The translations under genes and the position numbers were made by a program. From Pseudonocardia sp. (lineage in GTDB: Bacteria; Actinomycetota; Actinomycetes; Mycobacteriales; Pseudonocardiaceae), in contig NZ_JAJCYB010000046.1 in the NCBI RefSeq assembly GCF_029263155.1, forward strand, positions 1-64,000: DNA of 64,000 nucleotides, written 5' to 3'. Shown here in pieces: positions 6,086 through 21,576 of the stretch (the first letter of the stretch is position 1; each line of letters opens with the position of its first letter). The notes under the pieces are model-generated. The model was not told the origin of the DNA. It saw only the letters and a list, made by a program, of their open reading frames with translations, and did no database searches.

Positions 6086-6778
6086 ATGCACATCGCTGAG
6101 GGGTATCTGCCACCGCTGCACGCCGCGGCGTGGACGGTCGTCGCTGCGCCGTTCGTGGTGCACGGCGCCCGGGCGGTGGTCAAGCAGGTCCGCGAGGACC
6201 CCGACACCAAGCTCCTGCTGGGGGCGGCGGGGGCGTTCGCGTTCGTGCTGTCGGCGCTGAAGATCCCGTCGGTCACCGGCTCGAGCTCGCACCCCACCGG
6301 CACCGGGTTGGGGGCGATCCTGTTCAGACCCCCGGTGATGGCCATGCTCGGCACGATCGTGCTGCTGTTCCAGGCGCTGCTGATCGCCCACGGCGGGATC
6401 ACGACGCTCGGGGCCAACGCCTTCTCCCTGGCGATCGTCGGCCCGTGGGTCGCGTATGGCGTGTTCGTGCTGGTCCGCAAGCTGGGCGGGGGGCTGTCCC
6501 TCGGCGTGTTCCTGGCCGCGTCGCTCGCCGACCTCGCCACCTACTCGACCACCTCGGTGCAGCTCGCGCTCGCCTACCCCGACGTCACCTCCGGCGTCCT
6601 GGGCTCGATCGTCAAGTTCGGCACGATCTTCTCGATCACCCAGATCCCGCTCGCGATCTGTGAGGGCCTGCTCACGGTCCTGATCGTGCGCCTGCTGATC
6701 AAGGTCAGCCCCGACGAGCTGCGCCGCCTCGGTGTCCTGCGCCCCCGTCCCGCCGCGTCCGCACCGCAGGAGGTCTGA
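6086..6778 (+). CDS. cbiM: Cobalt/nickel ECF transporter, S-component CbiM
   Basis: A 230-residue membrane protein beginning [10 protein letters not shown]. The N-terminal Met-His-Ile-Ala-Glu-Gly stretch is the invariant metal-binding start of CbiM/NikM, where His2 coordinates the metal. Several transmembrane segments follow, with the family motif [15 protein letters not shown] at about 69-83. It captures Co2+ or Ni2+ for the energy-coupling-factor transporter built with the three next genes. The CbiN partner argues for cobalt, which is the usual CbiMNQO substrate, but nickel cannot be excluded. Confidence 0.95.
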
Positions 6779-6779
6779 G

Positions 6780-7112
6780 ATGTCGCGTTCCACGCTGGTC
6801 AACTGGCTGCTCGTGGTGGCGGTGCTGGTCATCGCGATCATCCCGCTGGCGTTCATCGGCAGCGAGACCGAGTTCGGCGGGGCGGACGGGGTGGCCGTCG
6901 AGCAGATCGAGGCCGACAACCCCGACTACGAGCCCTGGTTCTCCCCGCTGTTCGAGCCGGAGCCCGAGACGGCGTCCACGCTGTTCGCGCTGCAGGCGGC
7001 GATCGGGGCGGGCTTCCTCGGATACCTGTTCGGCAGCCTGAACACCCGGCGCAAGCTGCGGGCGACCAGCTCGGGCGGCGCGTCCCCACCCGTCGACGAC
7101 CACCGGACCTGA
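6780..7112 (+). CDS. cbiN: Cobalt transport accessory protein CbiN
   Basis: A 110-residue protein with an N-terminal transmembrane helix (about 7-27), an extracytoplasmic loop holding the family motif NPDYEPWFSPLFEP, and a second helix (about 72-88). CbiN has two helices and stimulates metal capture by CbiM. The ATG at 6780 lies 1 bp after the cbiM stop and follows GCAGGAGG. Its stop overlaps the start of cbiQ. Confidence 0.93.
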   Translation: MSRSTLVNWLLVVAVLVIAIIPLAFIGSETEFGGADGVAVEQIEADNPDYEPWFSPLFEPEPETASTLFALQAAIGAGFLGYLFGSLNTRRKLRATSSGGASPPVDDHRT

Positions 7113-7846
7113 TGCACTCCCTCGACGCGCTGGCCCACACCAACCCGTGGCGCCGACGGCACCCGGGGGAGAAGGCCGTGCTCGCGCTGGGGCTGCTCGG
7201 CTGCGCGGTGGCGCTGCCGCCGTGGCCGGGCGCCCTGCTCGTCGGGGCCTGCGCGCTCGCGGTCCTGCTCGGGCCGCTGGCCCTGCGACCCGGGCAGCTG
7301 CTGCGCGCGCTGCGGGCGCCGCTGGTGTTCGTCGCCGTCGGGTCGGTGCCGCTGCTCGTCGCCGTCGGGGGGGACCCGCTGATCCGCTGGGCGCCCGAGG
7401 GCATCGGCGCCGCGGTCGCGCTGGCCGGGCGGGCCACGGCCGCGCTGCTGTGCCTGATCCTGTTCGCCGCGAGCACGCCGCTGGCCGACGCGCTGCCGCG
7501 GCTGGAGCGCCTCGGCGTCCCGGCGGCGGTCACCGAGGTCGCGGCGCTGATCTACCGGCTGCTGTTCCTGCTGCTCGACACCGCCGCGGCCGTGCGCGAG
7601 GCGCAGGCGGGCCGACTGGGGTTCCGCACCTGGCGCACGACCTACCGGTGCGTCGCCGCGCAGGGCGCCGCGATCTTCGTGGGGTCGCTGGACCGGGCCC
7701 GGCGCCTGGAGCAGGGGCTGGCGCTGCGCGGGTACACCGGCTCGCTGCGGGTGCAGGTGCAGGAGCGGCCGGTGTCGGTGCCGTTCGTCGTCGCCTCGGT
7801 GGGGCTGGTGGTCGCGGTCGTGTCCACCACCCTGGTGCTGGCGTGA
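7112..7846 (+). CDS. cbiQ: ECF transporter T-component CbiQ
   Basis: A 244-residue membrane scaffold with several transmembrane segments. The cytoplasmic coupling motifs are visible as EAQAGRLG (about 162-169) and SLDRARRLEQGLALRG (about 190-205), the Ala-Arg-Gly-type helices that dock into the ATPases. It links CbiM to the ATP-hydrolysing CbiO dimer. Its start overlaps the cbiN stop by 1 bp and its end overlaps the cbiO start by 4 bp, indicating coupled translation. Confidence 0.93.
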   Translation: MHSLDALAHTNPWRRRHPGEKAVLALGLLGCAVALPPWPGALLVGACALAVLLGPLALRPGQLLRALRAPLVFVAVGSVPLLVAVGGDPLIRWAPEGIGAAVALAGRATAALLCLILFAASTPLADALPRLERLGVPAAVTEVAALIYRLLFLLLDTAAAVREAQAGRLGFRTWRTTYRCVAAQGAAIFVGSLDRARRLEQGLALRGYTGSLRVQVQERPVSVPFVVASVGLVVAVVSTTLVLA

Positions 7847-8724
7847 CGCCGGTGCTCGAGGCGCGGGGCCTGACCTTCGCCTACGAGACCGACCGGCCCG
7901 TCCTCGACGGGGCCGACCTGGCCCTGCACCCCGGGCGTCGGGTCGCCGTGCTCGGACCCAACGGGGGCGGGAAGACGACGCTGTTCCGCCTGCTCGCGGG
8001 GGCGCTGGCCCCGGCGGCGGGTGCGGTGCTGCTCGACGGCGTGCCGGTGGTGCGCAACCGGCGCGGGCTCACCGCGCTGCGCACGCAGGCGCAGCTGGTC
8101 CTGCAGGATCCCGACGACCAGCTGTTCTCGGCCGGCGTGGCGCAGGACGTGTCCTTCGGACCGGTCAACCTGGGGCTGCCCCCCGACGAGGTGCGGTCCC
8201 GCGTCGACGGTGCGCTCGCGGCGCTGGGGATCGGAGCGCTCGCCGACCGGCCGACGCACCTGCTCTCGTTCGGGCAGAAGAAGCGGGTGGCCATCGCCGG
8301 TGCGGTCGCGATGGCGCCGCGGCTGCTGGTGCTCGACGAACCGACCGCGGGCCTGGACCCGGCGGGGGTGGAGGAGCTGCTGGACACGCTGGTCGGCCTG
8401 CACGCCGCCGGCACCACCCCGGTGCTGTCCACCCACGACGTCGACCTCGCGCAGCGCTGGGCCGACGAGGTGGCGGTCGTCGCGGACGGGCGGGTCGTCA
8501 CGGGGGAGGCCTCGGCGGTGCTGGGCGACGCCGCGCTGCTGCGCTCCGCACGGCTGGGTCCGGCGTGGGCCCCCGCGGTGCATCGGCTGCTGGCCCGGGC
8601 CGGGTCGAGCGCCCGGCCGCGCACGGCCGCCGCACTGCACGAGCTGCTCGGTCCGCCCCCGACGTCCGGGGTCCCGTCGGCGTTCGGGATCACGGCCGGG
8701 TCGGCAGGCGAGACCTCGGGCTGA
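7843..8724 (+). CDS. cbiO: ECF transporter ATPase CbiO
   Basis: A 293-residue ABC ATPase. Walker A is GPNGGGKTT, the Q-loop region is LVLQDPDDQLFSA (the QDPDDQ form typical of CbiO/EcfA), the signature is LSFGQKKR, Walker B is LLVLDEPTAGLDP, and the switch His is in STHDVD. It powers cobalt/nickel import. It starts at GTG 7843 inside the last codons of cbiQ and closes the operon. The last 60 residues are a less conserved tail. Confidence 0.95.
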   Translation: MTPVLEARGLTFAYETDRPVLDGADLALHPGRRVAVLGPNGGGKTTLFRLLAGALAPAAGAVLLDGVPVVRNRRGLTALRTQAQLVLQDPDDQLFSAGVAQDVSFGPVNLGLPPDEVRSRVDGALAALGIGALADRPTHLLSFGQKKRVAIAGAVAMAPRLLVLDEPTAGLDPAGVEELLDTLVGLHAAGTTPVLSTHDVDLAQRWADEVAVVADGRVVTGEASAVLGDAALLRSARLGPAWAPAVHRLLARAGSSARPRTAAALHELLGPPPTSGVPSAFGITAGSAGETSG

Positions 8725-10856: not shown

Positions 10857-10982
10857 GATGGCCTACTTAACATGCATAGCTGCGCAGTTACCACTCGATC
10901 GGCGCAGCCGTTGTCAATCTCACGGCAACACACCGGTCCCAGACTGGGCGCTCACCGCACCGGGAGGGCTTGGGGAGGTCGA

Positions 10983-12047
10983 ATGGCCACGGACGTGCTC
11001 GATGTCGCCTTCGTCGTGCCCGGCAGCGGGCCGTCCGGAATCTACGGCCCGTCGTGCTGGGCGAGCGGGCGGCTGGCGGTCTCGGAGATCAACGAGGCCG
11101 GAGGCATCCTGGGTCGGGAGGTCCGGCTGCGGCCCGTGGACGGCGGTCGCACGCCGCTGGAGGTGGCCGCCGAGGTCGGATCGCTCGTCGCGTCGGGATC
11201 GGTGTCCGCGGTGGCCGGGTGGCACACCTCGGCGGTCCGCCAGGCGGTGGCGCCGCGGCTGCGCGGTCGCGTGCCCTACGTCTACACCGCGCTCTACGAG
11301 GGGGGCGAGCGCACTCCCGGGGTGTTCCTCACCGGGGAGACCCCGGCGGGTCAGGTGCGGCCCGCGATGGCATGGATGGCCCGAGAGCTCGGCGTGCGCT
11401 CCTGGTGCATCGTCGGCAACGACTACGTCTGGCCGCGGGCCTCCGCGCGGGCGGCCCGTGCCTACGCCGACTCGGTGGGCGCGCAGATCCGCGACGAGGT
11501 GTACGTGGAGCTGGGCACCCAGGAGTTCGGCCCGGCCCTGCGCCGGGTGGAGCGCTCGCACGCGCAGGGCGTGCTGATGTTCCTGCTGGGCTCGGACGCG
11601 GTCCAGTTCAACCGGGCCTTCACCGAGATGCGCCTGAACGACCGGTGCGTGCGTCTGAGCCCGCTGATGGACGAGAACATGCTGCTCGCGACCGGGGCGG
11701 CGAACACCGGGGAGCTGTACTCGGCGGCCGGCTTCTTCGAGGCGCTGGGCACCGCGCACGGCCTGGACTTCGAGCGCCGCTACGTGGACTCGATGGGCCC
11801 GACGGCTCCCGCGATCACCTCGCCCGGTGAGTCCTGTTTCGAGGGCATCACGCTGCTGTCGCACCTCGCGGCCGCCGCGGGCAGCACGGACGTCTCGGCG
11901 ATCAGCGGGGCGTCGGAGGCCGTCACCTACGAGGGTCCGCGTGGCGCGGTGCAGGTACGGGACCGGCACCTGCTCCAGCGCATCTACCTGGCCCGGGCCG
12001 ACGGGCTGGAGTTCGACGTGCTGGCGGAGATCAGCGGCGGCGTGTGA
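10983..12047 (+). CDS. AmiC/FmdD-like amide-binding sensor protein
   Basis: A 354-residue periplasmic-binding-protein fold (two Rossmann lobes) resembling AmiC, the amide sensor of the Pseudomonas amidase operon, and the FmdD/UrtA branch of amide and urea binding proteins. Matching stretches include INEAGGILGREVRL, the hinge WHTSAVRQAVAP, YVYTALYEGGERTPGVFLTGETP and IVGNDYVWPR. There is no signal peptide or lipobox, so it should be cytosolic and act as a ligand sensor rather than a transporter subunit. No AmiR partner is adjacent; two MarR repressors are instead. The GTGs and ATGs further upstream add residues unlike the family. Confidence 0.78.
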   Translation: MATDVLDVAFVVPGSGPSGIYGPSCWASGRLAVSEINEAGGILGREVRLRPVDGGRTPLEVAAEVGSLVASGSVSAVAGWHTSAVRQAVAPRLRGRVPYVYTALYEGGERTPGVFLTGETPAGQVRPAMAWMARELGVRSWCIVGNDYVWPRASARAARAYADSVGAQIRDEVYVELGTQEFGPALRRVERSHAQGVLMFLLGSDAVQFNRAFTEMRLNDRCVRLSPLMDENMLLATGAANTGELYSAAGFFEALGTAHGLDFERRYVDSMGPTAPAITSPGESCFEGITLLSHLAAAAGSTDVSAISGASEAVTYEGPRGAVQVRDRHLLQRIYLARADGLEFDVLAEISGGV

Positions 12048-12068: not shown

Positions 12069-12503
12069 TCACGTCCGGGCGGCGAGCCGGTCGAGCAGGT
12101 CGAGCAGCAGCGCCGCCTCGGGTCCGAGGATGCCGAGCACCTCCGCCTCGACGGCGCACACCGGCCCTACGAGGCGGTCGTGGGTGGCGCGCCCGCCGTC
12201 GGAGAGGAACACCAGCACGCGCCTGCGGTCCTGCACGTCGGGGAGCCGGTAGACCGAAGCCACGTCGACCAGGCGGTCGACGACCTTGGTCAGGGTGGGG
12301 CCGGGGACCGCGATCGCCGCGGCGATCGCGGACATCGTGCGGCCGGACCCGTCGGCCAGCAGGTGCAGCACGCGCCACTGGTCGACGGTGAGTCCCTCGG
12401 CGGCCACCGTGGCCTCGATGCGGCGGGACACCTGCCGCTCCACCTGGGCGAGCAGGCGATCCAACGGGGCACGCACCACACTGTCCGGCCGGCTGGTCGT
12501 CAC
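12069..12503 (-). CDS. MarR-family regulator 1
   Basis: A 144-residue winged-helix repressor: LTVDQWRVLHLLAD leads the DNA-binding domain, recognition helix AIAVPGPTLTKVVDRLVD, wing DRRRVLVFLSDGG. The GTG at 12503 is preferred, preceded by AGGGGGC. It has exactly the same length as the second MarR protein at 13.3-13.7 kb and about half of the residues in the DNA-binding core are identical, so the two arose by duplication. It faces away from the unknown gene at 12637 and probably represses that promoter. Confidence 0.88.
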   Translation of the reverse strand: MTTSRPDSVVRAPLDRLLAQVERQVSRRIEATVAAEGLTVDQWRVLHLLADGSGRTMSAIAAAIAVPGPTLTKVVDRLVDVASVYRLPDVQDRRRVLVFLSDGGRATHDRLVGPVCAVEAEVLGILGPEAALLLDLLDRLAART

Positions 12504-12578
12504 CTGGTGCCCCCTGGTCCGGTTCGGCCGGGTCCGGCCGAACACCTGCTGTCATCGTAAAGCAATCGTCACGAGGAT

Positions 12579-13282: not shown

Positions 13283-13717
13283 TTACTCGGCCAGACGCTC
13301 CAGCAGGCGGCGCAGCGTCGTCCGCTCGGCCGCGTCGAGGTCGCCGGACATCCGGTCCTCCGCGGCGGCCACGCCCGGCGCGAGCTCGTCGTGCACCGTG
13401 CGGCCGTGCTCGGAGAGCAGGACCAGGACCCGCCTGCGGTCGGCCACGTCGGCCCGCCGGTACACCATCGCGGAGTCGGTGAGCCGGTCGACGATCTTCG
13501 TCAGGGTCGGTGCGGGCACCATCGCGTGCTCGGCGATCTCGCTCATGGGATGCCCGGCGCCGTCGGCGAGTAGGCCGAGCACGCGCCACTGGTCGATGGT
13601 GAGCCCGGCGGCGGCGAGTTCCCGCTCGACCTCCCGGGCCATCCGGTGCGCGACGCGTCCCACGAGGTCGCCCAGCGGCACGGGACGGCGCACCTCGTCG
13701 GTCCGCACCACGGACAC
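13283..13717 (-). CDS. MarR-family regulator 2
   Basis: A 144-residue MarR repressor, paralogous to the one at 12.1-12.5 kb: LTIDQWRVLGLLADG, recognition helix HAMVPAPTLTKIVDRLTD, wing DRRRVLVLLSEHG. The GTG at 13717 has AAGGGAG 6 nt upstream. It is divergent from fmdB, with a 246-bp intergenic region holding a promoter with the shared element. MarR proteins usually respond to small phenolic or amide-like ligands. The effector here is unknown. Confidence 0.9.
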   Translation of the reverse strand: MSVVRTDEVRRPVPLGDLVGRVAHRMAREVERELAAAGLTIDQWRVLGLLADGAGHPMSEIAEHAMVPAPTLTKIVDRLTDSAMVYRRADVADRRRVLVLLSEHGRTVHDELAPGVAAAEDRMSGDLDAAERTTLRRLLERLAE

Positions 13718-13899
13718 CGGCCGCTCCCTTCGTCGGGTTCGGAGCTCATGATCGCTCCTGGGGCCGGGCGCGGCCAGGCCGGGCGGCCGCATCCTGCCGA
13801 CCGCACCCACCCGTGGTCGTTCCGCGTCGCGCGTCCGGCGCGACGGCAGCGTTGTCGGCCCGGCTTCCCCGGCTCGCGGACCCGCCCGGGGGGCGAGGG

Positions 13900-14292: not shown

Positions 14293-15546
14293 GTGCCTGA
14301 TGTCGTGTTCAGCGTGGACCAGGCCAAGTCGATGCGCGACCAGGTCGTGCCCGGCCACAACCGGTGGCACCCCGACATCCCGGCGGCGGCCACCGTGGCG
14401 CCGGGATCGTCGATCCGGATCGAGTGCCGCGAGTGGACCGACGCCCAGATCGGCAACAACGACTCCGCCAACGACGTCCGCGACGTCTACCTCGACGGCT
14501 GCCACATGCTGTCGGGCCCGATCGCGATCGAGGGTGCCGAGCCGGGCGACCTGCTCGTCGTCGACATCCTCGACCTCGGCCCGGTGCAGGCGCCCCAGGA
14601 GTACGGCGACGCCCCCGGCCAGGGCTGGGGCTACACCGGCATCTTCTCCAAGCTCAACGGCGGCGGCTTCCTCACCGACCAGTACCCCGACGCCTACAAG
14701 GCCATCTGGGACTTCAGCGGGCAGAAGGCGACCTCGCGGCACATCCCGGGCGTCAGCTACACCGGCATCACCCACCCCGGCCTGTTCGGCACGGCACCCT
14801 CACCGGAGCTGCTGGCGAAGTGGAACGAGCGCGAACGCGCGCTGATCGCCACCGATCCCGACCGGGTGCCCCCGCTGGCGCTGCCCCCGCTGGAGGCCGC
14901 CGTGCTGGGTGGTACCGCCACCGGCGAGCAACTGGCCGGTATCGGCCGCGACGGAGCCCGCACCGTGCCGCCGCGGGAGAACGGTGGCAACCACGACATC
15001 AAGAACTTCACCCGCGGCTCGCGCGTGTTCTACCCGGTGCACCACCCCGGCGCGCTGTTCTCCGGCGGCGACCTGCACTTCTCCCAGGGCGACGGCGAGA
15101 TCACCTTCTGCGGCGCCATCGAGATGGGCGGGTTCATCGACTTCCATGTCGACCTGATCAAGGGCGGCATGCAGACCTACGGGGTCACCACCAACCCGAT
15201 CCTCATCCCGGGCAACGTCGAGCCGCGGTACTCGGAGTTCGTCACGTTCATCGGCATCTCGGTGGAGCACGAGACGAACACCAACTTCTACAACGACGCG
15301 ACGGTCGCGTACCGCAACGCCTGCCTCAACGCGATCGAGTACCTCAAGAAGTTCGGCTACTCGGGCCCGCAGGCGTACCTGCTGCTCGGGTCGGCGCCGA
15401 TCGAGGGCCGGGTCAGCGGCGTGGTGGACATCCCGAACGCCTGCTGCACGCTCTACCTGCCCACGGCGATCTTCGACTTCGACATCACCCCGTCGGCCGC
15501 CGGTCCGATCATGGCCGACCGCGGGTCCTGCGCGGTCTCGTCGTGA
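14293..15546 (+). CDS. fmdA: Formamidase/acetamidase FmdA
   Basis: A 417-residue amidohydrolase of the FmdA/AmdA family, full length. Conserved stretches include [48 protein letters not shown] and [19 protein letters not shown]. The family hydrolyses formamide, acetamide and related short amides to ammonia and the acid in the cytosol. The GTG start at 14293 follows TGGAGG. Its stop overlaps the start of the amidase-like gene, so they are cotranslated. All family motifs I can judge are intact, so it should be the active amidase of this locus. Confidence 0.93.
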
Positions 15547-16310
15547 GGACGGTCGGGGTCGCGGTGCTCAGCCACACCGTGCCGACGCCGCGCACCCGCG
15601 GCGAGGTGCGGCTGAACTACCTGCGCATCGCCGACCTGGTGGTCGGCATGGCGCACGGTGAGCCCGGCCTCGACCTGATCGTGTTCCCCGAGTACGGCAC
15701 CCACGGCTTCCGCGGGGCGCCGGCGTCCGGGCCGCTGGTCGAGCCCGGCGAGGACGTCGCGATCTTCTCCCGGGCCTGCCGGACGGCCGGGGTGTGGGGG
15801 GTGTTCTCGACCAGCGGCGGGTGCTGCCGCCCCGAACCGGGGCACGCCGTGGTGCTCATCGACGACCGCGGCGAGGTCGTGGCGCGACACCGGCGCGGCG
15901 CGGGCGGCCGCGGGGGCGACCCGCCCGACGTCGTCGACGGTCCGGGCGGGCTGCGCACCGGCCTGAGCATCAGCCGGGACGACCCGCTGGCCGGCCCGGC
16001 CTGCCGGTACCGGGGCGCGGAGCTGCTCGTGCGCTACCAGGCCGAGCCGGGCCTGCCGGCCGCCGCGCAGGTGCGTGCGGCACGTGCGGCGGCCTGGCTG
16101 GGCACCTGCTACGTCGTGGCGCCGAACGCGGCGGGGCGAGCGGGTCCGCACCGCTGCTCGGGTCATTCGGCGATCGTCGGATTCGACGGCGCGACGCTGG
16201 CCGCCTGCGGCGACGAGGAGCACGAGTTCTCCTACGCCGAGCTGTCGGTCGACGCGCTGCGCCGGGCGCGGGCCGGCCGCCACCGACCGGAACGGGCCCG
16301 CGCCTGCTGA
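15543..16310 (+). CDS. AmiE/AmiF-like amidase homologue lacking catalytic Lys and Cys
   Basis: A 255-residue member of the carbon-nitrogen hydrolase family, closest to aliphatic amidase/formamidase: [58 protein letters not shown]. Of the catalytic Glu-Lys-Cys triad only Glu50 remains. The Lys loop (YRK-x-PWCPIEGW in AmiE) is replaced by a Gly/Arg-rich stretch at 115-130, and the Cys strand LIVCDDG reads LSISRDD at 141-147. It also lacks the C-terminal 80-90 residues of AmiE. It is probably a pseudoenzyme with a binding, sensing or structural role. Its start overlaps the fmdA stop. Confidence 0.8.
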
Positions 16311-16357: not shown

Positions 16358-17848
16358 ATGTCAGACGACCACGGCCACGGGCACGGACACGACGACAACG
16401 GCCACGACACCACGCTGGCCCGCATCGAGGCACTGAGCAAGGAGAACGTCCACCACGCGGGCGATCACGAGGGTCCGTTCTCGCTGCACGTGCTGGGCCT
16501 GGGCGCGGCCGGTGCGGCGGTCGTCGCCGAGATCCTCGCCGACGCCCCGGACGGCTTCACCGCGCTGGCGGTGAACATCGGCGACGAGCCGCTCGCCGCC
16601 GTCCGCGCCGCGGCGGGCGGCTCGTCCGCCGTCGCCACGGTGGACCTGCCCATCCCGAGCCGGGCCGGATTGTCGGCCTCGCTCAACCGCTACCGCGAGT
16701 TCCTCAAGATGGAGTACCCGCGCTACTACTGGAACCCGAACTACGAGCCGTGGCTGCCCGGTGACCTGGCCCTGCCCGGCCCGGGCGAGCCGGTGCCCCG
16801 CGCGATCGCCAAGGCGATCTACAACTGCGAGTACTACCAGAACGGGGAGATCACGCAGGCGATGGAGGCGTTCGCCGCGGGCGTGCTCGCCAGCGACAAG
16901 ACGCCGGTGGTGGTGATCCCGTTCTCGCTCGGCGACAGCTCCGCCAGCGGCATCGTCGTGGACCTGGCCCGACACCTGTCGTCGATCAAGCTGGGGCGCC
17001 GCCCCTGGGTGGTGGGCGTCGGCATCACCCCGACCGAGCCGTCGGCCGGGTTCTTCCCGGTGATCAACGAGCTGGACTGCATGATCGACAGCTCGAAGAA
17101 CCAGGGCGTCATGGCCGTGTGGGGCGACCTGTACAAGAACCCGTTCACCGGCGGATTCTTCTCGGTGCCCCAGCCCGAGGGCCGTGACGTCGCCCCCGGG
17201 ATCGGGAAGTTCCTGTCCGCAGGTGGCGGGAAGGACCTCTACGAGTCGCTCAAGGCGCTGAACTGGCTCGCCGTGCCCGGCGACCAGTGGCACCCGGCGA
17301 TCCGCGGGGAGCAGAGCGACAAGTGGATCAACGTCCTGACCGTCACCGGCCTCGACGACGCGGGGTCGCTGGGCGACCTGGGCCTGACCAAGGGTTTCTC
17401 CACCGAGTACGCCGAGGCACGCGTGTTCGGTTCGGGCAAGGAGGCCACGGCCGCGGCGAAGGCCGTCGGCGCGGCGATCCCCGAGGTCGCGGCCACCCGG
17501 GTCGCACCGGTGGTCAAGACCGCGCCGGGCGCCGGCTTCGTCAGCGTCGTCCTGCCGCGCGCCACCAAGCTGGACCTGGCGGCGTTCGTCCCGTCCCGTG
17601 ACCTCTACGACCCGCTGGAGTGGGACGACAAGCTGCTGTTGCACTCCTGGATCCTCGATCTCGGCGTGCTGCTCTGCGAGCCCTCCATCCGGTTCGACGG
17701 CATGGGTGGGGAGTGCATCTGGGGCTGTGCCTGCTGGGTCGTCGTCCCGCACGCCGCGATCCGGGGCGAGGCGATCGAGTCTCCGGTCACCGAGCCCGAG
17801 GTCGCGGCGATCGCCAGGTCCGGGGCCGGCGTGGCGGCCTCCGGATGA
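16358..17848 (+). CDS. Tubulin/FtsZ-like protein, subunit A with degenerate nucleotide loop
   Basis: A 496-residue cytosolic protein. The N-terminus is His-rich (HGHGHGHDDNGH, 5-16). Residues 42-230 follow the tubulin/FtsZ nucleotide domain: a T1-like loop GLGAAG (47-52), a second strand FTALAVNIGDEP, and the T4 position where GGTGSG is replaced by GDSSASG (192-198), followed by IVVDLARHLSSIKLGRR. Blocks nearly identical to subunit B are KMEYPRYYWNPNYEPWLPGD and NQGVMAVWGDLYKNPFTGGF. The C-terminus has Cys453, Cys457 and Cys459 in CIWGCACW. The family placement is an inference; the function is unknown. It probably pairs with subunit B. Confidence 0.75.
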   Translation: MSDDHGHGHGHDDNGHDTTLARIEALSKENVHHAGDHEGPFSLHVLGLGAAGAAVVAEILADAPDGFTALAVNIGDEPLAAVRAAAGGSSAVATVDLPIPSRAGLSASLNRYREFLKMEYPRYYWNPNYEPWLPGDLALPGPGEPVPRAIAKAIYNCEYYQNGEITQAMEAFAAGVLASDKTPVVVIPFSLGDSSASGIVVDLARHLSSIKLGRRPWVVGVGITPTEPSAGFFPVINELDCMIDSSKNQGVMAVWGDLYKNPFTGGFFSVPQPEGRDVAPGIGKFLSAGGGKDLYESLKALNWLAVPGDQWHPAIRGEQSDKWINVLTVTGLDDAGSLGDLGLTKGFSTEYAEARVFGSGKEATAAAKAVGAAIPEVAATRVAPVVKTAPGAGFVSVVLPRATKLDLAAFVPSRDLYDPLEWDDKLLLHSWILDLGVLLCEPSIRFDGMGGECIWGCACWVVVPHAAIRGEAIESPVTEPEVAAIARSGAGVAASG

Positions 17849-17861
17849 GCGGCGGGATCTG

Positions 17862-18161
17862 ATGGCCACCGACTGGGCCGCCGTCGTGGAGCGCTACCGC
17901 GACGGCGCCGAGCTCCCGTCGATGCCGGGGGCGCGCACGCTCAAGGTCACCGGCGCCGACGACGGCTACATCTACGTCTCGCACCGCCTCTGGCAGGACA
18001 AGATCACCCGGGCGTACCTCGAGAAGGCGATGACGCTGCTCGACGAGGGCCGGATGACCCGCAACTACGGCGACGTGATCGACCACTACCGCACCTACAT
18101 CGCCGACGAGCGACCGACGACCGCAGCCACGATCCTCAAGGACCTCGGCTACCTCGACTGA
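17862..18161 (+). CDS. Small conserved protein 1 of the tubulin-like locus
   Basis: A 99-residue protein beginning MATDWAAVVERYRDG. It is paralogous to the proteins at 20936 and 21232: all share DW-x2-V-x2-RY-x2-G near the start, G-x2-TL-x-V/I, an LW-x2-x-x-x-R middle and, in the first two, a VLKDLG-like end (here ILKDLGYL). I recognise no known domain. Predicted mixed alpha/beta, no Cys, no membrane segment. It lies between the two tubulin-like genes, which suggests it is a stoichiometric partner, chaperone or assembly regulator. Confidence 0.75.
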   Translation: MATDWAAVVERYRDGAELPSMPGARTLKVTGADDGYIYVSHRLWQDKITRAYLEKAMTLLDEGRMTRNYGDVIDHYRTYIADERPTTAATILKDLGYLD

Positions 18162-18222
18162 CCCGTCCGCACGTCCCGGGACGTACCGCGCTGCCGCACG
18201 CCCGAAAACAGGAGGAACACCA

Positions 18223-19878
18223 ATGGGACTGTCCATGTACCACAGTGCGACCGGCGCGCAGTCGCCGCACTGCATCCACGCGATCGGCATCGGCAAGACC
18301 GGCGCCTACATGGTCGAGGCGCTGCTGCGCACCGGTGAGATCGAGGACATGCTGGAGGACCCGCGCGCCCGGTTCACCGGCCTGTCGATCGACATCGGCG
18401 ACCAGGACCAGCACGAGCTCAAGGAGTACATGGGCGGGTTCGACCAGCGGCTCGCCGAGCGCGGCATCCCGACCGATCGGGCCCAGGTCCGCACGGTCTC
18501 GCTGGACATGCCGGAGAAGAAGGACCTCATGACCAGCCTCAACCGCTGGCGCGAGTACCTGAAGATGGAGTACCCCCGGTACTACTGGAACCCGAACTAC
18601 GAGCCGTGGCTGCCCGGTGACACCCAGCTGCCCAAGGCGGGCGACTCGATCCCGCGCGCGATCTCCAAGGCCGTGTACGGGCACTACTACTACGGCGAGG
18701 ACAAGTCCCTGGAGCGCGAGCTCGACGACTTCGTCGCGAGCATCAACCAGACCAAGCTGCCCTCGCTCGTGCTGGTGTTCTTCTCGATGTCGGGCGGCAC
18801 CGGCTCGGGCATGGTCGTCGACCTCGCACGGCACCTGTCCAACATCAAGCTCGGGCGCCGCCTGCCCGTCGTCGGCGTGGCGGCCATGCCGTTCTCCGGC
18901 GACGAGGCCCACGTCGGCGGCGACGCCGCGCTCTACCCGACCATGAACGAGATCGACTGCATGCTCGACGACGCCAAGAACCAGGGCGTCATGGCCGTGT
19001 GGGGCGACCTCTACAAGAACCCGTTCACCGGCGGCTTCCTCGCGCTGCCCCAGGAGCACTCCTGGCAGCGCCTGGGCTCCTACACCCAGACCGGCAAGCC
19101 GGCGATCCGCGACGCGCTGCGCAAGGGCGTCACCCGCAAGTTCGTCAACGACTCGTTCATGCGCTTCGTCGTGCAGGACTACGGCCGCCTGCTGTTCAAG
19201 ATGCTGCGCCCGATGGGCTTCACCGGGGCCCCGCACGAGCGCAACATCTCCGGCGACCGCACCTGGACGGTCTTCGACGTCGCCAAGTACACCCACCCGG
19301 GCGTGGAGGTGCTGCCCGGCGAGCCGCGCAGCAAGTGGCGCGAGGTCGTCAACAAGTGGATCGGCTACATCCCGCAGTGGTCGGGGCTCAAGGAGGGCTT
19401 CAAGACCGACTACGTCGAGGCGCACACCGTGGCCCCGCGCGAGCTGTGGAACGAGGGGCTGGAGACCAAGCTCCGCGACACCCTGCAGACCTTCGTGCTC
19501 GATGGCGACGACGGCACCGTCAACACCTCGGTCGGGGAGTTCTTCGACGAGCTCACGGCGTACTCCAACATCATCATCCCGGGCGTGGCGAAGACCGACT
19601 TCACGGCCTTCTACGCCGCCCGCGACGCCTACGACGCGATCGAGTCGTGGGACGAGAAGCTGATGATGCACTCCTGGCTGCTCGACCTCGGCGTCATCCT
19701 GTCCGAGCAGTCCATCCGCTTCGACGGCATGGCGGGCGAGTGCATCTGGGGCTGCGCGTGCTGGGTGGTCATCCCGCACGAGGCGATCCGCGGCGACGCC
19801 CCGATCTCCAAGGACGTCTCCGCCGTGCAGGCCGACCACATCTCGATGATGGTCAAGACGGTCGTCCCGACCCCCTGA
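18223..19878 (+). CDS. Tubulin/FtsZ-like protein, subunit B with intact GGTGSG loop
   Basis: A 551-residue cytosolic protein with an excellent AGGAGG ribosome-binding site. The N-terminal half shows the superfamily order: T1-like GIGKTG (22-27), strand FTGLSIDIGDQ (51-61), and the signature loop SMSGGTGSGMVVDLARHL with GGTGSG at 191-196, followed by LPVVGVAAMPF. A large middle region (about 270-450) is absent in part from subunit A. A stretch PGVAKTDF (453-460) faintly resembles the T7 catalytic loop PGLINVDF of FtsZ, but its Asn is Lys and the order is displaced, so this is weak. The C-terminus repeats CIWGCACW (Cys507, 511, 513). Likely the nucleotide-binding member of a pair. Confidence 0.78.
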   Translation: MGLSMYHSATGAQSPHCIHAIGIGKTGAYMVEALLRTGEIEDMLEDPRARFTGLSIDIGDQDQHELKEYMGGFDQRLAERGIPTDRAQVRTVSLDMPEKKDLMTSLNRWREYLKMEYPRYYWNPNYEPWLPGDTQLPKAGDSIPRAISKAVYGHYYYGEDKSLERELDDFVASINQTKLPSLVLVFFSMSGGTGSGMVVDLARHLSNIKLGRRLPVVGVAAMPFSGDEAHVGGDAALYPTMNEIDCMLDDAKNQGVMAVWGDLYKNPFTGGFLALPQEHSWQRLGSYTQTGKPAIRDALRKGVTRKFVNDSFMRFVVQDYGRLLFKMLRPMGFTGAPHERNISGDRTWTVFDVAKYTHPGVEVLPGEPRSKWREVVNKWIGYIPQWSGLKEGFKTDYVEAHTVAPRELWNEGLETKLRDTLQTFVLDGDDGTVNTSVGEFFDELTAYSNIIIPGVAKTDFTAFYAARDAYDAIESWDEKLMMHSWLLDLGVILSEQSIRFDGMAGECIWGCACWVVIPHEAIRGDAPISKDVSAVQADHISMMVKTVVPTP

Positions 19879-19955: not shown

Positions 19956-20438
19956 ATGCCCGCCATCGGAGACAAGGTCCCCGACACCACCGTGATGGTC
20001 ACCACCGCGGACGGCCCCGGCCCGGCGAGTTCCGCCGAGCTGCTGGGCTCGGGCACCGTCGTGCTGATCGGCGTGCCCGGCGCCTTCACCCCCGTCTGCA
20101 GCGACTTCCACCTGCCCGGATTCGTGCTCGCCGCCGAGCAGCTCAGGAACAAGGGGGTCGACCGGATCGCGGTCGTCTCCGTCAACGACGCGTTCGTGAT
20201 GGGCGCGTGGGGTCGCTCGGAGGACGCGGGAGCGGAGTTCCTCATGATCGCCGACCCGGACGCCGCGTTCGCGACGGCGATGGGTATGGCCACCGACGCG
20301 AGCTCGTTCGGCCTGGGCACCCGCTCCGAGCGCTACGCCGCGATCCTGCGTGACGGCGTGATCACCTCGCTGGAGGTGGAGTCGACGTTCGTCGAGCACG
20401 AGGTCAGCTCCGCCGAGGCCGTGCTCGCGAGGCTCTGA
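19956..20438 (+). CDS. Prx5-type peroxiredoxin
   Basis: A 160-residue peroxiredoxin of the AhpE/Prx5 group. The peroxidatic Cys48 is in PGAFTPVCS, and VSVNDAFVMGAWG and IADPDAAFATAMGM are standard Prx5 features. I see no obvious resolving Cys, so it is probably a 1-Cys type reduced by glutathione-like or mycothiol systems. It lies 77 bp behind the subunit B gene and 4 bp before the next gene, so it belongs to the operon. It may protect the conserved Cys clusters of the tubulin-like proteins. Confidence 0.92.
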   Translation: MPAIGDKVPDTTVMVTTADGPGPASSAELLGSGTVVLIGVPGAFTPVCSDFHLPGFVLAAEQLRNKGVDRIAVVSVNDAFVMGAWGRSEDAGAEFLMIADPDAAFATAMGMATDASSFGLGTRSERYAAILRDGVITSLEVESTFVEHEVSSAEAVLARL

Positions 20439-20442
20439 CGCC

Positions 20443-20934
20443 ATGCCGGACACGGTCGAGGCGCAGGTCGCCCGGGAGTTCGCCGAGTGGCTCGACCGGG
20501 TCCGGGTGACCTTCGAGGCGGTGCGCTACACCTGCGCGCACCGCCTCGCCGAGCCGGCGCTGGCCGAGCAGGTGAGCGTGCAGGTCGTGGCCGGGATGGT
20601 CGCGCGGCCTGCGGTGTTCCGGTACTTCGGCCTGCCGTACTCGGGGCGGATCGCGCGGCTGGCCGAGGCCCGGATCGCCGAGGCCGACGCCGGCGAGCTC
20701 GCCGCCGTGTGCGGCTGGGAGGAGCTGCGGGACCTGCTGGTCGCGCTGCCGCTCGAGCACCGCGACGCACTCGTCGTCATGTGCCTGCGCGGCGGTGACG
20801 TCGAGGACCTCGCGGCGGTCATCGGCTGTGACGAGCCGACGGCGGAGCTCCGGCACGAGGCGATGCTCACCTACGTGGGCGAGCTGGTCAGGCCCGGTCT
20901 GGCGCCCGCGCCGGACCCCGACGGAAGGCGCTGA
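20443..20934 (+). CDS. Degenerate ECF-sigma-like protein
   Basis: A 163-residue protein with the layout of an ECF sigma factor. RYTCAHRLAEPALAEQVSVQ resembles region 2 (LTGDPALAEDVVQE), and ALPLEHRDALVVMCLRGG followed by DVEDLAAVIGCDEPTAELRHE resembles the region 4 helix-turn-helix. The acidic core-binding motif and the polar recognition helix are poorly preserved, so DNA binding is doubtful. No anti-sigma gene is adjacent. It may have been recruited as a protein-protein adaptor in this locus, or be a diverged regulator. It starts 4 bp after the peroxiredoxin stop. Confidence 0.55.
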   Translation: MPDTVEAQVAREFAEWLDRVRVTFEAVRYTCAHRLAEPALAEQVSVQVVAGMVARPAVFRYFGLPYSGRIARLAEARIAEADAGELAAVCGWEELRDLLVALPLEHRDALVVMCLRGGDVEDLAAVIGCDEPTAELRHEAMLTYVGELVRPGLAPAPDPDGRR

Positions 20935-20935
20935 G

Positions 20936-21235
20936 GTGCCACTGGACTGGACGAAGGTCATGGACCGCTACGCGGGAGGCACGACGATCCCGACCGTGGC
21001 GGGCGGGAAGACCCTGCAGATCACCGGCGTCGACGACGCGGGGGTGCACATCCGCAACTCGCTGTGGCGCGACACGCTCGCCCGCGAGCACCTGGAGAAG
21101 GCCGCAGACCTGATCGAGTCCGACGCGATGAGCCGGCACGCGGGGCTCTTCGTCGAGGAGTACCGGGCGCTGGTGGTCGACGCCCGCGCGACGTCCGCGG
21201 CGCACGTGCTCAAGGACCTCGGGTTCCTGGAATGA
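20936..21235 (+). CDS. Small conserved protein 2 of the tubulin-like locus
   Basis: A 99-residue paralogue of the protein at 17862, of identical length: VPLDWTKVMDRYAGG at the start and AAHVLKDLGFLE at the end. The GTG at 20936 begins 1 bp after the upstream stop. The last codon overlaps the ATG of the third paralogue by 4 bp. No known domain. Conservation of length and both ends in two copies separated by 3 kb argues for a defined interaction surface at each end. Confidence 0.75.
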   Translation: MPLDWTKVMDRYAGGTTIPTVAGGKTLQITGVDDAGVHIRNSLWRDTLAREHLEKAADLIESDAMSRHAGLFVEEYRALVVDARATSAAHVLKDLGFLE

Positions 21236-21576
21236 CCGGTACCGGGACGGCGGGGATCGACTGGACCGCGGTCCAGGAGCGCTACCGCGGCGGCCGTGCG
21301 GTGCGTCCGCTCGCCGGGTCGTCGACGTTGCGCGTCGAGGCCGCGGGCGACGCGCTGGTCGTCAGCCAGCGGCTGTGGCGGGCGGAGCTCACGCGTGACG
21401 AGCTGGCGGTGGCGGTGCGGCTGCTGGGGGAGCAGCCGCCGGGGATCGGTGCCGTCGCGTTCTCCGAGGTGCTGCGCCGGCACTACTCGGGCGGGCCACA
21501 GGTACAGCCGACCTGCAGCCGCACGCCCAACATGAGCGCGGTGGTGCTGGTGGACCTGGGCCTGCTGGCGTCGTAA
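21232..21576 (+). CDS. Small conserved protein 3 of the tubulin-like locus
   Basis: A 114-residue third paralogue: IDWTAVQERYRGG at 9-21, STLRVEAAGDALVVSQRLWRAELTR in the middle and VVLVDLGLLAS at the end. It differs from the other two by an 8-residue N-terminal extension and an insertion PQVQPTCSRTPN near residue 90. It is the last gene of the operon. A convergent psuK gene ends 15 bp further on. Confidence 0.7.
   Translation: MTGTGTAGIDWTAVQERYRGGRAVRPLAGSSTLRVEAAGDALVVSQRLWRAELTRDELAVAVRLLGEQPPGIGAVAFSEVLRRHYSGGPQVQPTCSRTPNMSAVVLVDLGLLAS

Follow-up and report, generated by a model that had tools for sequence, protein, structure and literature searches.

A probable acetonitrile hydratase-type operon of Pseudonocardia encodes paired subunits with a predicted tubulin/FtsZ fold

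The window analyzed here is a 64,000-nucleotide stretch of Pseudonocardia sp. DNA (NCBI RefSeq assembly GCF_029263155.1, contig NZ_JAJCYB010000046.1, positions 1 to 64,000, forward strand), in which a preliminary description based on the DNA letters had pointed out two adjacent genes, here called A and B, as members of a possibly undescribed family of the tubulin/FtsZ superfamily. Our analyses indicate that A, B and the small gene between them very probably constitute an operon for a cobalt nitrile hydratase of the acetonitrile hydratase (ANHase) type, which as a whole is the best explanation of the locus, and that both subunits have the tubulin/FtsZ fold in their predicted structures. The enzyme itself is known from Rhodococcus jostii RHA1; what appears to be new is the tubulin/FtsZ fold of the ANHase class, together with a candidate metal motif. 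No link between ANHase and tubulin was found in the titles and abstract openings listed by the literature searches, most subscription papers being outside reach.

We further consider it reasonably likely that the tubulin/FtsZ fold was the site of a second origin of nitrile hydratase activity, through loss of the T7 GTPase site and gain of a C-terminal E-C-x-x-G-C-A-C-W cobalt site, yielding a metalloenzyme that does not form filaments and is now distributed among Actinobacteria, Cyanobacteria, Proteobacteria and Firmicutes. If ANHase is a tubulin-fold protein, the tubulin/FtsZ superfamily includes a metalloenzyme whose reaction has nothing to do with GTP hydrolysis, and nitrile hydratases that use cobalt have evolved two or more times, on unrelated folds. 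It would also provide a specific candidate for the metal site that can be tested, correct the database names "tubulin-like" and "hypothetical protein", and indicate uncharacterized nitrile hydratases in several phyla.

Relationship to the acetonitrile hydratase operon of Rhodococcus jostii RHA1

Subunit A (16358..17848, forward strand) and subunit B (18223..19878, forward strand) encode proteins of 496 and 551 amino acids, with coordinates and lengths in the translations identical to those given in the preliminary description. The paralogy it had proposed is borne out by BLASTP (207 of 527 aligned positions identical, 39%; E 5e-118), and the two sequence blocks that it had listed as shared were found to be identical in A and B. 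Between them lies a gene for a 99-amino acid protein (17862..18161, forward strand).

The same three core genes occur in the same order on plasmid pRHL2 of RHA1 (NC_008270, 163335-166915), and their products show full-length homology to the window proteins, with identities of 53% for A, 63% for the 99-amino acid protein and 56% for B. The set on pRHL2 comprises MarR, binding protein, aliphatic amidase, A, small protein, B, helix-turn-helix gene and nickel transporter; in the plasmid annotation A is "tubulin-like", B is a "hypothetical protein" and the transporter is assigned to nickel. We equate these pRHL2 genes with the ANHase operon, with A as the ortholog of AnhA (ANHase alpha), B as the ortholog of AnhB (ANHase beta) and the 99-amino acid protein as the ortholog of AnhE, a small cobalt metallochaperone. 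The RHA1 small protein has a computed mass of 11.1 kDa, one histidine and no cysteine. AnhE is said to have a mass of 11.1 kDa and a sole histidine, and cobalt is said to reside in AnhA; we take the computed mass and the single histidine to agree with these values. To our knowledge, ANHase has no significant sequence identity to characterized nitrile hydratases.

According to published work, the RHA1 acetonitrile hydratase is a cobalt nitrile hydratase with genes in the order alpha-AnhE-beta, and AnhE is a cobalt metallochaperone that is essential for maturation (PMC3511329, PMC3680314). The Rhodococcus enzyme is classed as a non-corrin Co(III) enzyme (PMC6719099), a review states that the R. 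jostii enzyme contains Co, Cu and Zn (PMC7193024), and RHA1, for which one nitrile hydratase is listed, expresses acetonitrile hydratase (PMC6941271). The earlier view that no system of this type had been described was hence wrong with regard to function, given the gene order and the identities to the RHA1 operon. The proteins do match a characterized enzyme family, but that enzyme family is itself predicted to have the tubulin/FtsZ fold.

Comparison of the two operons shows that they have in common, besides the core genes, an amidase, a binding protein, a MarR gene and a metal transporter nearby. The window copy differs from that of RHA1 in carrying a C-terminal Cys motif in both subunits rather than in A only, in having fmdA beside a degenerate amidase, in having cbiMNQO where RHA1 has the annotated nickel transporter, and in having two extra AnhE paralogues.

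Predicted fold and nucleotide loops

In the Pfam scan, B matched Tubulin_2 (PF13809) marginally above the cut-off (27.8 bits, cut-off 27) and scored below the cut-off for PF00091 (26 bits, cut-off 33), and for A the scan gave no match at E up to 1. A phmmer search against the PDB returned no significant match. The profile of the family matched a Tubulin_2 profile with a probability of 95.6% (E 1.3e-8), which is stronger than the marginal PF13809 match; the template was built from four sequences picked from six matching genomes, the other two of which (G000 and G169) carry members of the A/B family.

AlphaFold2 models computed from family alignments reached a predicted local distance difference test score (pLDDT) of 89.7 and a predicted template modeling score (pTM) of 0.90 for A (43 rows), and a pLDDT of 89.0 and a pTM of 0.91 for B (72 rows). 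A Foldseek search of the PDB with the B model returned 973 chains at E up to 0.001, led by FtsZ (1w5e, E 1.4e-9), and at the same cut-off the A model returned 352 chains, again led by FtsZ (6umk, E 8.4e-8). The best 50 of the 973 chains for B and the best 50 of the 352 for A are all FtsZ, CetZ, TubZ, tubulin or tubulin-containing complexes, as judged from entry titles and lengths. Among these best 50, the whole-chain template modeling scores by query length range from 0.30 to 0.47 for B (root-mean-square deviation 6.6-10.4) and from 0.28 to 0.40 for A (6.6-12.2), and are therefore moderate (<0.5) for both subunits, over long and gapped alignments. The C-terminal part of both models is mixed alpha/beta. 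The FtsZ of the window genome is a separate gene on another contig, and used alone in a comparison with the family it gave a weak match (probability 5.7%, E 0.0067, over 30 columns around T4); for this reason, the superfamily link rests on the Foldseek results and the Tubulin_2 profile. These two analyses, both of which the preliminary description had proposed, concur in predicting a tubulin/FtsZ fold for A and B, and its superfamily assignment is right.

The A/B family resembles Tubulin_2/FtsZl1 (PF13809; Makarova and Koonin 2010) in the profile-profile match and in the T1 and T4 loops, and differs from it in the length of its members (496-551 amino acids), in a C-terminal domain of its own and in the Cys motif. 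PMC2875224 describes FtsZl1 together with FtsZl2 and attributes to FtsZl1 a coiled coil, a helical C-terminal domain, a tie to membrane remodeling and VWA, GTPase and OmpA partners, and Tubulin_2 proteins are divergent FtsZ-like proteins according to PMC9871819; no mention of the A/B family was met in the parts of these two papers that were covered. Among the scanned window proteins, neither VWA nor OmpA was matched in Pfam or NCBIfam. With FtsZ, CetZ, TubZ and tubulin the A/B family shares the fold of the predicted models, and it is set apart from them by a conserved insert around KMEYPRYYWNPNYEPWLPGD, by the metal motif and by the absence of the T7 signature.

The T1-like loops and second strands pointed out in the preliminary description are present in the translations of A and B, and the T1 loop is conserved in all 48 B and in 44 of 45 assessable A sequences. 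A T4-type GGTGSG loop is found at residues 191-196 of B (18793..18810, forward strand), and a T4-like loop is present in all 48 B and in 34 of 46 A sequences; the window's A is among the degenerate ones. The T7 signature N-x-[DE]-x-x-[DE] was absent from the aligned region after helix H7 in all 95 sequences (48 B and 47 A). Since this catalytic loop is missing throughout, A and B probably work as an enzyme built on the fold of tubulin and do not form a filament, and GTP-driven filament dynamics are unlikely. B may still bind nucleotide through its T4 loop during cobalt loading or assembly.

A cytoskeletal, tubulin-like heteropolymer with the amide genes as incidental passengers would account for the fold, for the T4-like loop of every B and for the strict pairing of A with B, which recalls alpha/beta tubulin. 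The absence of T7, the degeneration of T4 in part of the A sequences, including that of the window, the neighborhood of cobalt and amide genes and the orthology to a published enzyme operon all speak against such a role, which we rejected as very improbable.

Conserved gene neighborhood and C-terminal cysteine motif

The ANHase assignment is supported by the genes that surround A and B in other genomes. B was found in 7 of 41 genomes (that of the window plus 40 relatives), with A just upstream in all seven. Phylum-wide, 4 of 396 genomes gave a match, three with an A-B pair and the fourth with a candidate stub (21 bits, 71 positions), revealing a sparse and patchy family. When each species was represented by one genome, the scan identified 49 loci (L023-L071; L071 is only a 39% fragment) spanning Actinobacteria, Cyanobacteria, Proteobacteria and Firmicutes. 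At one of these, L030, labeled Deltaproteobacteria, B is 82% identical to that of the window; as its nearest kin are Pseudonocardiaceae, this locus is maybe mis-binned or recently transferred.

We clustered the open reading frames of the 49 loci and of positions 8001-30000 of the window (50 loci in all), naming the clusters by Pfam on one representative each, FmdA by NCBIfam and MarR by the window's own copies. On the amide side, the recurrent genes encode an aliphatic amidase (32 of 50 loci), an amide/urea-type binding protein (28), FmdA (8) and AmiR (4); on the metal side they encode CobW (20), CbiM (9), CbiQ (7), CbiN (7), CbtA (7), NicO (6) and DUF1636 (4), and MarR is present in 18. One or more of these amide genes occur in 42 loci and one or more of these metal genes in 37, with both kinds in 32 loci and at least one in 47. 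The loci with neither are L028 (on a 5.2-kb contig), L030 (3.4 kb) and L033, where the contig starts inside A. The window was scored as having no metal gene because its clustered excerpt began past cbiMNQ. Wherever a locus has both genes (46 of 46), A precedes B in the same orientation, with an AnhE homologue between them by tblastn. Neither tubulin nor FtsZ nor acetonitrile occurs in the COG0523 survey of PMC2770081.

Near the C-terminus, both subunits conserve the motif G-E-C-(I/L)-x-G-C-A-C-W. In the window it reads ECIWGCACW in A (residues 452-460; 17711..17737, forward strand), the proposed cobalt site, and likewise in B (residues 506-514; 19738..19764, forward strand), a proposed second cobalt site. 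Based on its conservation and on analogy, we propose this motif as a candidate cobalt and active site. The CxxxCxC pattern is present in both subunits in 34 of 49 assessable A-B pairs, in A only in 12, in B only in 3 and in neither in none. This count adds five plasmid loci (L072, L075, L076, L077, L079) and leaves out L028, L030, L063, L066 and L068, in which the C-terminus or the partner is missing; at L063 the motif is lost in A and B is cut by the contig end. RHA1 keeps the motif in A only, which agrees with AnhA reportedly being the cobalt-bearing subunit.

Three clustered cysteines, the same reaction and the same metal are also features of the canonical cobalt nitrile hydratases (PF02979/PF02211), of which A and B might be strongly diverged alpha and beta members, the more so as the motif C-x-L-C-S-C is said to be common to all known alpha subunits (PMC7329996). 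A and B do not contain this motif and have C-x-x-x-C-x-C instead. Furthermore, neither protein matched PF02979 or PF02211 at E up to 1 in Pfam, the family profile showed no relationship to nitrile hydratase alpha (E 0.57), and the best 50 Foldseek chains of each subunit all belong to the tubulin superfamily. With no sequence or fold similarity found in these comparisons, we rejected kinship with the canonical enzymes, the probability of which is close to nil.

The proximity of CobW and cobalt transporter genes, and the His-rich stretch that 24 of 39 assessable A sequences have ahead of the core, would also suit a cobalt-handling scaffold or GTP-dependent metallochaperone that serves another nitrile hydratase and is not itself the catalyst. 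Candidates for such a client exist, as the window genome harbors two canonical nitrile hydratase alpha genes elsewhere (C27:34567-35118 and C131:15590-16132), detected with a model that was silent in 14 of 14 control genomes. The same model found no canonical alpha gene on pRHL2 (the RHA1 chromosome was not searched), and the alpha and beta proteins of this gene order are named as enzyme subunits in PMC3511329, PMC3680314 and PMC7193024, making the scaffold role quite unlikely.

Several observations nonetheless weigh against the ANHase assignment or parts of it, the two canonical alpha genes of the window genome being one. The step from ANHase to the exact pRHL2 genes is made through gene order, computed mass and background facts on ANHase rather than through a locus tag. 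The A protein of RHA1 carries CxxxCxC, in conflict with the universal C-x-L-C-S-C of PMC7329996, and the same paper has ANHase maturing by self-subunit swapping, whereas PMC3511329 denies subunit swapping for AnhE. In addition, 13 of the 50 loci have no metal gene within the stretch examined. Lastly, the complementary Cys pattern is suggestive and not statistically strong, because the minimum on the B tree is only three independent changes, one for A and two for B.

Proposed mechanism and neighboring genes

Nitrile hydration, cobalt and the need for AnhE are in print for the RHA1 enzyme, and to these the present analysis adds orthology, gene order, predicted fold, motif pattern and gene neighborhood; the window copy would have the same activity. 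Cobalt would enter through an importer encoded by cbiM, cbiN, cbiQ and cbiO at about 6086..8724 on the forward strand (tblastn, open frames; Pfam CbiM 181, CbiN 79.9, CbiQ 123.8 and ABC_tran 99.2 bits), with CobW, CbtA or NicO genes in that place in other lineages; the importer belongs to the neighborhood, and the earlier statement that it included no membrane protein was wrong. AnhE would then pass cobalt to the enzyme, as published for the RHA1 protein and as the gene order suggests here. The three cysteines of the C-terminal motif would hold the metal, by analogy with canonical enzymes, and cobalt would, again by analogy, act as a Lewis acid that activates water or the nitrile (R-CN -> R-CO-NH2). 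The amide genes, which are present as described earlier, would perform the next step of nitrile breakdown, with FmdA hydrolyzing the amide to acid and ammonia and the aliphatic amidase doing so in most relatives. A short aliphatic nitrile is the probable substrate; as FmdA is present, formation of formamide from cyanide is also possible.

The formamidase gene fmdA (14293..15546, forward strand; NCBIfam NF045496 629 bits, cut-off 500), for which the GTG start was chosen from the homologue in L025, is followed by a probably inactive relative of the aliphatic amidase (15543..16310, forward strand; CN_hydrolase 68.7 bits), in which Arg and Ser replace Lys134 and Cys166 of the RHA1 amidase. With the catalytic Lys and Cys gone from this relative, amide hydrolysis has apparently passed to FmdA. 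Amidase relatives that have lost catalytic residues were also observed in L023 (5338-6114) and L026 (5242-6099), which like the window have fmdA, and relatives without the Lys in L027 and L040, with no fmdA in the stretch examined. The Glu, Lys and Cys are kept in 29 of 35 aligned amidase sequences, the sixth exception (L044) being a partial open reading frame.

Upstream of fmdA, the window encodes an amide/urea-type, AmiC-like substrate-binding protein (10977..12047, forward strand; PF13458 257 bits) and two MarR-type regulators on the reverse strand (12069..12545, PF12802 43 bits; 13283..13750, PF12802 47 bits), a MarR gene being annotated at the RHA1 operon as well. Downstream of B lie a peroxiredoxin gene (19956..20438, forward strand; PF08534 109 bits), with homologues in 11 of 50 loci, and a gene for a conserved 163-amino acid protein (20443..20934, forward strand), with homologues in 22 of 50 loci, which had no Pfam match and weakly resembles sigma-70 region 4 (NCBIfam E 0.0065). 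These are followed on the forward strand by the second and third AnhE paralogues (20936..21235, 38% identity to RHA1 AnhE, E 2e-30; 21235..21576, 30%, E 1e-11). Matches of small proteins to DUF3045 and to an antiporter in Pfam and NCBIfam were discarded as noise.

The proteobacterial loci L048 (12221-13474), L050 (12241-13500), L055 (12629-13972), L061 (12188-13540), L075 (14619-15767) and L078 (9983-11131) encode a third tubulin-like paralogue, which is shorter and lacks the Cys tail. In L075 and L078 two genes precede it, one for a CbbQ/NorQ-type AAA protein and one for a VWA-domain protein, perhaps forming a maturation machine; the VWA genes adjoin the operon or the third paralogue in these two loci, and GTPases are represented by the CobW proteins counted above. 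A ClpB-like AAA protein, perhaps with the same maturation role, is encoded near the operon in 6 of 50 loci, including those of Williamsia and Tetrasphaera (L057 4971-6119, identified by Pfam, L060 4906-6147 and four more). Finally, the cyanobacterial locus L046 (401-3163) and, similarly, L041 (199-3018) encode proteins of 921-940 amino acids with a C-terminal histidine kinase (Pfam on L046) and an N-terminal part that reads as a permease, a possible sensor of nitrile or amide.

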